Below are positions 37,197-39,048 of a stretch of 64,000 nt of DNA, piece by piece. The DNA lies in the NCBI RefSeq assembly GCF_001639105.2, contig NZ_CP015285.1:2224501-2288500 (forward strand), in the 5' to 3' direction. The notes under the pieces were generated by a model. It worked only from the letters and a program-made list of their open reading frames with translations. It did not search any database and was not told where the DNA came from. The position numbers and the translations under genes are program-made. This DNA comes from Azospirillum humicireducens (GTDB taxonomy: Bacteria; Pseudomonadota; Alphaproteobacteria; Azospirillales; Azospirillaceae). Within the stretch, counting starts at the first letter, position 1, and each line of letters begins with the position of its first letter.

Positions 37197-37228
37197 GTCC
37201 CTGGCCCATGTGCCCCCTCATGCCCGAT

Positions 37229-37338
37229 GCCCCCTCCCCATCCCTCCCCCGCCCTCGGCGGTGGAGGGGGCGGGAGCTTTGCAAAAGTACAGCGGCTGCC
37301 CCCTCTCCCTCGAAGAGGGGGAGGGTTAGGGAGGGGGC
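37229..37338. repeat. Palindromic intergenic element, copy A (110 bp)
   Basis: Terminal inverted repeats of 22 bases (GCCCCCTCCC... at 37229-37250 and its near-complement ending 37338, 20 of 22 matching) enclose two small hairpins and a central TTTGCAAAAG...AGCGGC segment. It lies between the convergent accA and imuB genes. A related copy with an inverted centre is at 60736-60860. It has no coding capacity and resembles a small MITE or composite REP element. Confidence 0.75.
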
Positions 37339-37347
37339 AAAAGCACC

Positions 37348-38931
37348 TCAGCCCAGGAACCCGTGCAGGAACCAGCGCGGCCATTCCCCCGGCCGGTACA
37401 GCCCGGCGCGGAACAGCCAGAAGCGGCGGCCGGCGCCATCCTCCACGCGGTAATAATCGCGCACGGCCAACCCCAGCGATCCTTCCGGACGCCACCATTC
37501 GCACTCGATCCGCTCCGGCCCCTCGGCCCGGCTCACGCGGTGGCGCAGGCCGCGCCAGACGAACTGCAGCGGCGGGTCGTCGGGCAGCGGGGCGGTGGCC
37601 TCGATCGGTTCGGGCGGGGTCAGCAGGCGCAAAGGCCGCGGCCGGCCAGCCGGCCAGGGCTTCGGCAGCGGCAGGACCTCCACCGGCGGCAGCGCGGCGA
37701 CGCAGCGTTCCGGCAGCCAGCTTTCCCGCGGCACCAGCCGCAGCACCGCCCGTTCCCCCAGCCGCAACGCCAGCCGATCGACCAGTTCCGCCAATCCTCC
37801 GTCAATCCCCTCGCCGTCGATGCCGGTCTGGATGGCGATGAGCGGCCCCGTCTCCGTCGCCGACAGCACCAGTGTCTCCAGCCCCGGACCAGGGTCGATC
37901 CGCTCGAGCAGCGGGGCGGCCAGCCGCGCCAGCGCCGCCGGGTCGCGGGTAGGGCGGCTGGTGCCGAGCGTCAGGCTCTGCGCTTCGTCATCCACCCTCT
38001 GGTCGGTGCGGTGGGTGTCCAACCGCAGCCGGCGCACCCCCTGCCCAGCCGCCTCCAGCCCAGTGCACAGCCGGCCCAGCAGATGGCGGAGCGCCCCGGC
38101 AATCGACTCGGGCGTGGAGATCGGCTCGGCGAAGGTCAGGCGCTCGCGGTGCTCAGGCACCGGCCGGCGCGGAGAGATCGGCTCGTCCAGCCGGCCGAAT
38201 GCCTGATCGTAGCGTTGCAGCAACCTGCCCCCGAACCGCGCCGCCAGCCCGGCCCGCGGCATGGCATGCAGGTCGCCGATCCGGCGCAATCCCAGCGCAT
38301 GCAGCCCCTCGACCGTCTCGGCGGGCAGGCGCAGGGCGGCCAGCGGCAGCCCATCCAGCCGCTCCCGCCGCCGATCCTCCGGACTGCCGAACCGCACCAG
38401 CCCCCAGGCGGCGGCCGGGGTGTCGGCGATGGCGGCGCGGGCGGCAAAGCCGGCGGCGCGCAGTCGACCGGTCAGGTCGGCGGCCAATGCCGCTTCATTC
38501 CCGAACAGATGGGCGCAGCCGGTGATGTCGATCACCACCCCGTCCGGCTCGTCCGCCGCTGTCCAGGGGCTGTAGCGATGCGCCCAGTCGGCGATGCGGC
38601 CGAGCAGGACCGCATCGGCCTCCGGCGTCGCCTCCGCCACCTCCAGCCCCGGCTCCAACGCACGGGCGTCGCTGAGGGTATGGCCGGGGCCGATGCCGGC
38701 CGATGCCGCCACCCGGTTGACCGCGACCACCATCCGGCGCTGGCGCTCCGTCCGCAGCAGGGCGAAGGGACGTCCCCGCAATTCGGGCGGCATGGTCCGC
38801 TCCCGCGCGTCGGTGGGCAGCCGAGGCAGCCACAGGGCGAGGATGCGGCGCCTTCCTCCCCAACGACCGAATCCCCTCTCCCCCCCGGGGGGAGAGGGGG
38901 ATAGGTCCGGATGTGGGAAGAGGGGCTTCAT
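37348..38931 (-). CDS. imuB: ImuB-type Y-family polymerase-like protein
   Basis: A 527-residue protein of the ImuB family, catalytically degenerate relatives of DNA polymerase IV/V that recruit ImuA and DnaE2 to the beta clamp in SOS mutagenesis. Recognisable blocks are ILALWLPRLPTDARER, VVAVNRVAASAGIGPGHTLSDARAL, and YSPWTAADEPDGVVIDITGC, in which the second catalytic acidic pair of active polymerases is not evident. Neither imuA nor dnaE2 is adjacent, so the usual cassette is split. The only in-frame ATG/GTG/TTG starts before the domain are ATG 38931 and TTG 38955; the first 25-30 codons then run through a repeat palindrome. A LexA box lies just upstream. Confidence 0.88.
   Translation of the reverse strand: MKPLFPHPDLSPSPPGGERGFGRWGGRRRILALWLPRLPTDARERTMPPELRGRPFALLRTERQRRMVVAVNRVAASAGIGPGHTLSDARALEPGLEVAEATPEADAVLLGRIADWAHRYSPWTAADEPDGVVIDITGCAHLFGNEAALAADLTGRLRAAGFAARAAIADTPAAAWGLVRFGSPEDRRRERLDGLPLAALRLPAETVEGLHALGLRRIGDLHAMPRAGLAARFGGRLLQRYDQAFGRLDEPISPRRPVPEHRERLTFAEPISTPESIAGALRHLLGRLCTGLEAAGQGVRRLRLDTHRTDQRVDDEAQSLTLGTSRPTRDPAALARLAAPLLERIDPGPGLETLVLSATETGPLIAIQTGIDGEGIDGGLAELVDRLALRLGERAVLRLVPRESWLPERCVAALPPVEVLPLPKPWPAGRPRPLRLLTPPEPIEATAPLPDDPPLQFVWRGLRHRVSRAEGPERIECEWWRPEGSLGLAVRDYYRVEDGAGRRFWLFRAGLYRPGEWPRWFLHGFLG
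38871..38902. repeat. CT/GA palindrome inside the 5' end of imuB
   Basis: A perfect palindrome CCCCTCTCCCCCC/GGGGGGAGAGGGG forms a very stable hairpin at the start of imuB. The flanks AATCCCCTCTCC and GGGGGATAGG match the right half of the element at 60736-60860, so it is probably a partial copy of that repeat. Confidence 0.7.
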
Positions 38932-38949
38932 ACGAGAGCCAACAGTTCG

Positions 38950-38964
38950 GAACAAACAAAGAAC
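38950..38964 (-). promoter_or_regulatory. LexA (SOS) box of imuB
   Basis: On the minus strand the site reads GTTC-N7-GTTC, the exact alphaproteobacterial LexA consensus, 19 bases before the ATG at 38931. imuB is a known LexA-controlled gene in this class, so site and gene support each other. Confidence 0.85.
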
Positions 38965-39048
38965 ATACTAGCGCCAGCTTGGCCGCAGGGGGAGTCCCTC
39001 CTTTAGGGTCATCTTGCCGAAACGTCCGGCAGTACCGACATTCCGTTC

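Follow-up and report, generated by a model that had tools for sequence, protein, structure and literature searches.

The window, by which we mean the whole 64,000-nucleotide stretch of Azospirillum humicireducens DNA that was analyzed, carries on its minus strand a gene whose sequence identifies it as imuB, encoding a presumably inactive Y-family polymerase homolog of the SOS mutasome (Table 1). In a profile search, the product matched IMS (54 bits) and IMS_C (36.8 bits), both above the Pfam cutoffs; the IMS match begins at profile position 11, leaving the first catalytic block unmatched, and the core is ILALWLPRLP. Matches to imuB were obtained in 42 of the 45 Azospirillum genomes, a few of them distant paralogs or weak matches only, and the named organisms among them are Azospirillum sp. 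B21, A. oryzae, A. lipoferum, A. endophyticum, A. melinis, and A. picis. The window's genome has one further Y-family gene, on contig C6, with a strong IMS match. From what is known of the family (PMC3901139), the protein encoded here is presumably the usual clamp-binding hub of the ImuA-ImuB-DnaE2 mutasome. Our literature search found no paper on imuB in Azospirillum, and a plasmid collection searched with the imuB 5' region returned zero matches.

Table 1. Features of the imuB locus, in window coordinates
Feature	Position	Strand	Basis
Putative -10 element TAGTAT, abutting the LexA box	38965..38970	-	Similar AT-rich hexamer at the equivalent place in relatives
LexA (SOS) box GTTCTTTGTTTGTTC	38950..38964	-	Conserved in orthologs (count in text)
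imuB coding sequence from the likeliest start, ATG 38931	37348..38931	-	527 aa; Pfam IMS and IMS_C, genus orthologs, frame conservation
Residues 1 to 27, N-terminal extension, largely repeat derived, predicted to be translated	38851..38931	-	Absent in outgroups; in frame in 14/14; residues 1 to 26 with pLDDT < 50
REP-like hairpin, probably what an 87-bp deletion left of a double-hairpin element	38865..38907		Inverted repeat; one 87-nt gap versus L041; 24 genome copies of the core
Purine-rich GGGGAGGAAGG ahead of the conserved block, probably coding here	38851..38861	-	L046 has GGGAGGAGGCGTGCCATG at the equivalent place
Second double-hairpin repeat, between imuB and accA	37228..37339		Arms 37228-37250 and 37317-37339; spacer length not frame constrained, used as control

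A first-pass annotation of this DNA had called imuB SOS controlled on account of a LexA-type box, which is indeed present. Taken by itself, the box could be due to chance, as 1.09 matches of the GTTCN7GTTC type are expected within the window and a single one is not significant, but it recurs at the equivalent position in 29 of the 29 orthologs whose 5' region could be inspected, in keeping with putative SOS control through LexA. The tighter form GTTCN5TTGTTC occurs seven times in 6.86 Mb. A sigma-70 scan of the imuB promoter region gave no full match; since an AT-rich -10-like hexamer adjoins the box in most relatives, the transcript probably begins in or close to the box.

Two possible starts had been put forward for the protein, at 38931 and 38955. 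The ATG at 38931, located 18 nt past the LexA box, is the sole in-frame ATG, GTG, or TTG between the box and the core and is the likely start on sequence grounds, whereas the TTG at 38955 lies within the LexA box and was rejected as an unlikely start. The observation that no ATG, GTG, or TTG follows the purine-rich tract in frame proved correct, and an internal start after GGAGGAAGG was rejected because such a codon is missing and because frame conservation (see below) is contrary to it. Neither ATG 38931 nor any of its counterparts is preceded by a Shine-Dalgarno sequence, which counts against this start; in most outgroups, a Shine-Dalgarno sequence precedes the ATG. The purine-rich tract resembles the ribosome-binding site of the outgroup L046 and may be left over from an earlier site of this kind. 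Possible internal starts past the palindrome were seen in L008 and L009.

The segment between this ATG and the core is occupied by a palindrome that is near-perfect rather than perfect, its arms (38865-38885 and 38887-38907) being 86% complementary around a 1-nt loop. Its core, CCCTCTCCCC-N-GGGGAGAGGG, occurs 24 times in the genome, compared with 0 occurrences of a control pattern, and thus defines a dispersed palindromic repeat family. As no RAYT/Y1 transposase gene was found in the genome, mobilization of the repeat by such an enzyme was rejected, as was a role of the hairpin as a transcription terminator, given that it has no T-run and no match in a terminator scan. With the second double hairpin on the accA side, imuB has repeats at both of its ends.

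Comparison with relatives showed that the repeat is confined to part of the genus. In the outgroups L046, L013, L047, and L014, it is absent, and the proteins begin with MTRRIV, MSRRIL, MVRRIL, or MTRRIV, so that the pattern M-(T/S/V)-RRI stands straight before the LWLPR block. In contrast, a clade of 15 Azospirillum species (support, 100/97) has REP-like hairpins at the imuB start, often two with a spacer between them, which makes the insertion clade specific; L042 and L006 carry a further insert nested in the 5' repeat. The proposal that a repeat had been inserted at the imuB 5' end is therefore supported by the outgroup orthologs. The first 27 residues, whose possible uniqueness to this protein had been raised, turned out not to be unique, as relatives have an equivalent repeat-derived segment in many lengths.

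These many lengths provided us with evidence on whether the repeat is translated. In all 14 clade members with a complete 5' end, the ATG lies 17 to 18 nt past the LexA box. The ATG-to-LWLPR distance takes ten values (75, 90, 96, 99, 114, 144, 183, 189, 198, and 243 nt), every one a multiple of 3. The ATG frame of the extension contains a stop in 0 of the 14 species, while frames +1 and +2 are interrupted in 12 and 8 of them, respectively. By parsimony on the tree, which has some unresolved forks so that the count is approximate, at least 10 length changes took place, and if the frame were unconstrained, all of them would be in frame by chance with a probability of about 2e-5. As a control, we used the untranslated spacer between imuB and accA, which is also repeat bearing in the window. 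Its lengths (151, 146, 31, 3, 54, 39, 67, and 262) give pairwise differences divisible by 3 in 9 of 28 cases, matching the chance prediction, compared with 45 of 45 for the 5' segment. Because the frame is kept in 14 species over ten lengths with no stops, and the spacer is under no such constraint, ATG 38931 is the likely start and the repeat at the imuB start is very likely translated.

These data also bear on a scenario in which the palindrome forms an untranslated leader hairpin with a role in posttranscriptional control, of the kind suggested for many 5' REPs elsewhere, ImuB being made from a nonstandard codon after GGAGGAAGG. Such a leader would be compatible with the purine-rich tract ahead of the core and with the strong predicted RNA hairpin (z = -2.65), and a survey of intragenic REPs has warned that many N-terminal copies may be noncoding (PMC3733652). 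However, an untranslated leader would not hold to multiples of 3 or to a stop-free frame in 14 species, and no ATG, GTG, or TTG is available in frame past the tract, making this scenario improbable. The nonstandard start offered by the first-pass annotation is likewise not supported, since the frame has been retained in 14 species through at least 10 changes in length, which favors ATG 38931.

Codon-position statistics were less informative. Differences in the extension are distributed over the three codon positions as 288/315/406, and this third-position bias was too weak to serve as proof of translation and was dropped from that argument. The weak bias gives the residues of the extension a nearly neutral appearance and, together with the free length change, suggests that the tail is tolerated rather than selected. 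It is nevertheless conceivable that the extension has a selected function, for example, in tuning SOS expression through a hairpin in the early coding region or in binding a partner, which would be compatible with our main explanation. Its presence in every sampled member of the 15-species clade and the constant spacing of 17 to 18 nt between box and ATG could be read in this way, but the ATG-to-core segment ranges from 25 to 81 codons with freely varying residues and is predicted to be disordered, and we therefore consider such a function unlikely.

The window's version of the repeat is best understood next to its closest relative, L041, which is 94% identical, has the same protein as L122 (Azospirillum sp. 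B21), and has kept both hairpins. Their alignment contains one gap of 87 nt, or 29 codons, running exactly from hairpin to hairpin. Two other pairwise comparisons likewise show single gaps between hairpins, of 90 and 75 nt, and a 1-nt indel is confined to the untranslated leader. Together, these gaps and the position of the indel fit deletion between the direct CCCTCTCCCC arms combined with selection on the frame. The exact hairpin-to-hairpin difference from the sister also speaks against the view that misassembly or a homopolymer error at the 5' end masks an ordinary start. Errors of this kind are invited by the GC-rich palindrome with its runs of 6 to 7 bases, and two of the other genomic copies of the repeat have N bases next to them. 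Yet 14 separately assembled species agree, including the records of A. lipoferum, A. oryzae, A. melinis, and A. endophyticum, and we regard an artifact as very improbable indeed.

Considering these data, we propose a model for the history of the imuB start. First, a double-hairpin, REP-like palindromic element would have invaded the gene start in the ancestor of the 15-species clade, either downstream of the original ATG or upstream of it, a new ATG being recruited in the latter case. Translation from ATG 38931 would then include the repeat and give the protein an extra Pro/Gly/Arg-rich stretch, 27 residues long here and about 20 to 76 residues long in relatives. The element would be shortened repeatedly by recombination or slippage between its CCCTCTCCCC arms (by 87 bp in the window strain), with selection for the polymerase-like core downstream retaining in-frame outcomes only. 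In this scenario, the added tail is disordered and tolerated, and ImuB presumably remains the clamp-binding hub of a mutasome whose genes lie at three separate loci. Based on comparative sequence data, we consider it highly probable that a repeat entered the start of this SOS-controlled imuB, that translation begins at ATG 38931, and that the repeat has since been shortened in frame.

Protein-coding palindromes are already known, and in our reading, the imuB case would add an unusually clean comparative proof. The Rickettsia palindromic elements (RPEs; Ogata et al. 2000; reviewed in PMC10969869 and PMC2229807) are in-frame palindromes within genes and, like the imuB repeat, reside in conserved genes, are kept as extra residues, and hold the frame across relatives. 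The likeness concerns the gene context, and the imuB repeat differs in occurring in free-living Azospirillum rather than in an obligate intracellular host, in its very strong length turnover at a single site, and in its position at the protein start. REPs have also been reported within many genes, notably those for replication and repair, including dnaE2 (PMC3733652). As in imuB, these are REP-like hairpins, often dimers, that encode 20 to 30 or more residues in DNA repair genes. The main text of that study makes no mention of imuB or Azospirillum, and it cautions that N-terminal cases are perhaps false because translation may start downstream; here, coding of the N-terminal copy is supported by frame conservation, and the series of frames answers this caution for imuB. 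A repeat at a gene start is often put down to a misannotated 5' end, but about ten in-frame length changes argue that this one is read as protein. Our analysis would correct the ImuB start in a plant-associated bacterial group and place the hub of the SOS mutasome among the palindrome-decorated repair proteins, and the repeat-free outgroups offer a ready system for determining the cost of such insertions.

The first-pass annotation had also described imuA and dnaE2 as missing. This holds for the neighborhood of imuB but not for the genome, where imuA, imuB, and dnaE2 all occur, noncontiguously and with the single-operon arrangement absent. A homolog of imuA lies at C1:2333711-2334595, 70 kb from imuB (C1:2.26 Mb), with a GTTCN7GTTC box 3 nt from the start of its open reading frame; its score is below the curated cutoff of the ImuA family, but homologs of it directly adjoin ImuB paralogs, as on contig C2 of G013. 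A DnaE2-like open reading frame of 1,035 aa is located on the same contig at C1:237 kb, and no perfect GTTCN7GTTC was found upstream of it. As in the imuA-imuB-dnaE2 (imuC) cassette (PMC3901139), an ImuB homolog with a LexA box is thus accompanied by imuA and dnaE2, but at three separate loci. Cassettes split in this manner have been described before, for example, in Mycobacterium tuberculosis (PMC3901139). ImuA matches were found in 41 of the 45 genomes of the genus, and the imuA-imuB gap is about 6 kb in a more distant Azospirillum clade. Because imuB and imuA are separated in most of the genus, the orphan position of imuB is an old, shared trait. In G013 (G013:C2:505853-508100), a more distant imuA-imuB pair exists side by side in addition to the separate imuB; similar extra pairs were seen in G014, G050, G053, G056, G058, and G059.

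The 5' end is not the only site in ImuB to have acquired palindromes. In another Azospirillum clade (L019 to L022 and L024), different palindromes of 126 to 195 nt lie in frame in a loop in the middle of the protein after TPAAAW-(L)ARF, at a site where L014 and L018 carry 39 and 15 nt, respectively. That these palindromes are coding is not in doubt, and they represent a case independent of the one at the 5' end. A structure predicted for the window's ImuB from a 13-sequence alignment (mean pLDDT, 66.7, and hence a guide only) has its core beginning at a strand formed by residues 30 to 34, and its low-confidence segments, residues 1 to 26 (pLDDT < 50) and 183 to 186, coincide with the two insertion sites.

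Beyond imuB, copies of the repeat lie in a histidine-phosphatase gene (L071:1497-1519) and between acyltransferase and FabA-like domains (L067:1547-1569). Each has an N base beside it and a frame shift across it, so that sequencing errors are possible, and we do not claim these copies as in-frame insertions. In L058:968-2059 (G000:C1, about 752.8-753.9 kb), as well as in L108 to L118, L120, and L121, the frame of RuvC (151 bits in Pfam) stays open across a double palindromic repeat and joins that of DUF559 (119 bits). This uninterrupted frame, including the repeat-derived linker, is 91 to 94% identical in ten relatives, with shorter linkers in L118, L120, and L121, and may represent either a genuine gene fusion or two neighboring genes that lack an intervening stop. 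With two sites in ImuB and the RuvC-DUF559 frame kept in 11 species, it is possible, if rather doubtful, that Azospirillum palindromes recurrently enter DNA repair proteins in frame as linkers or domain joiners and thereby create new architectures. Separately, a 718-aa frame with no Pfam match (L062:1-2154, minus strand, in G000:C1:2731500-2734500; also L094 to L107) has a proline-rich linker that has grown in frame by palindromes in several species.
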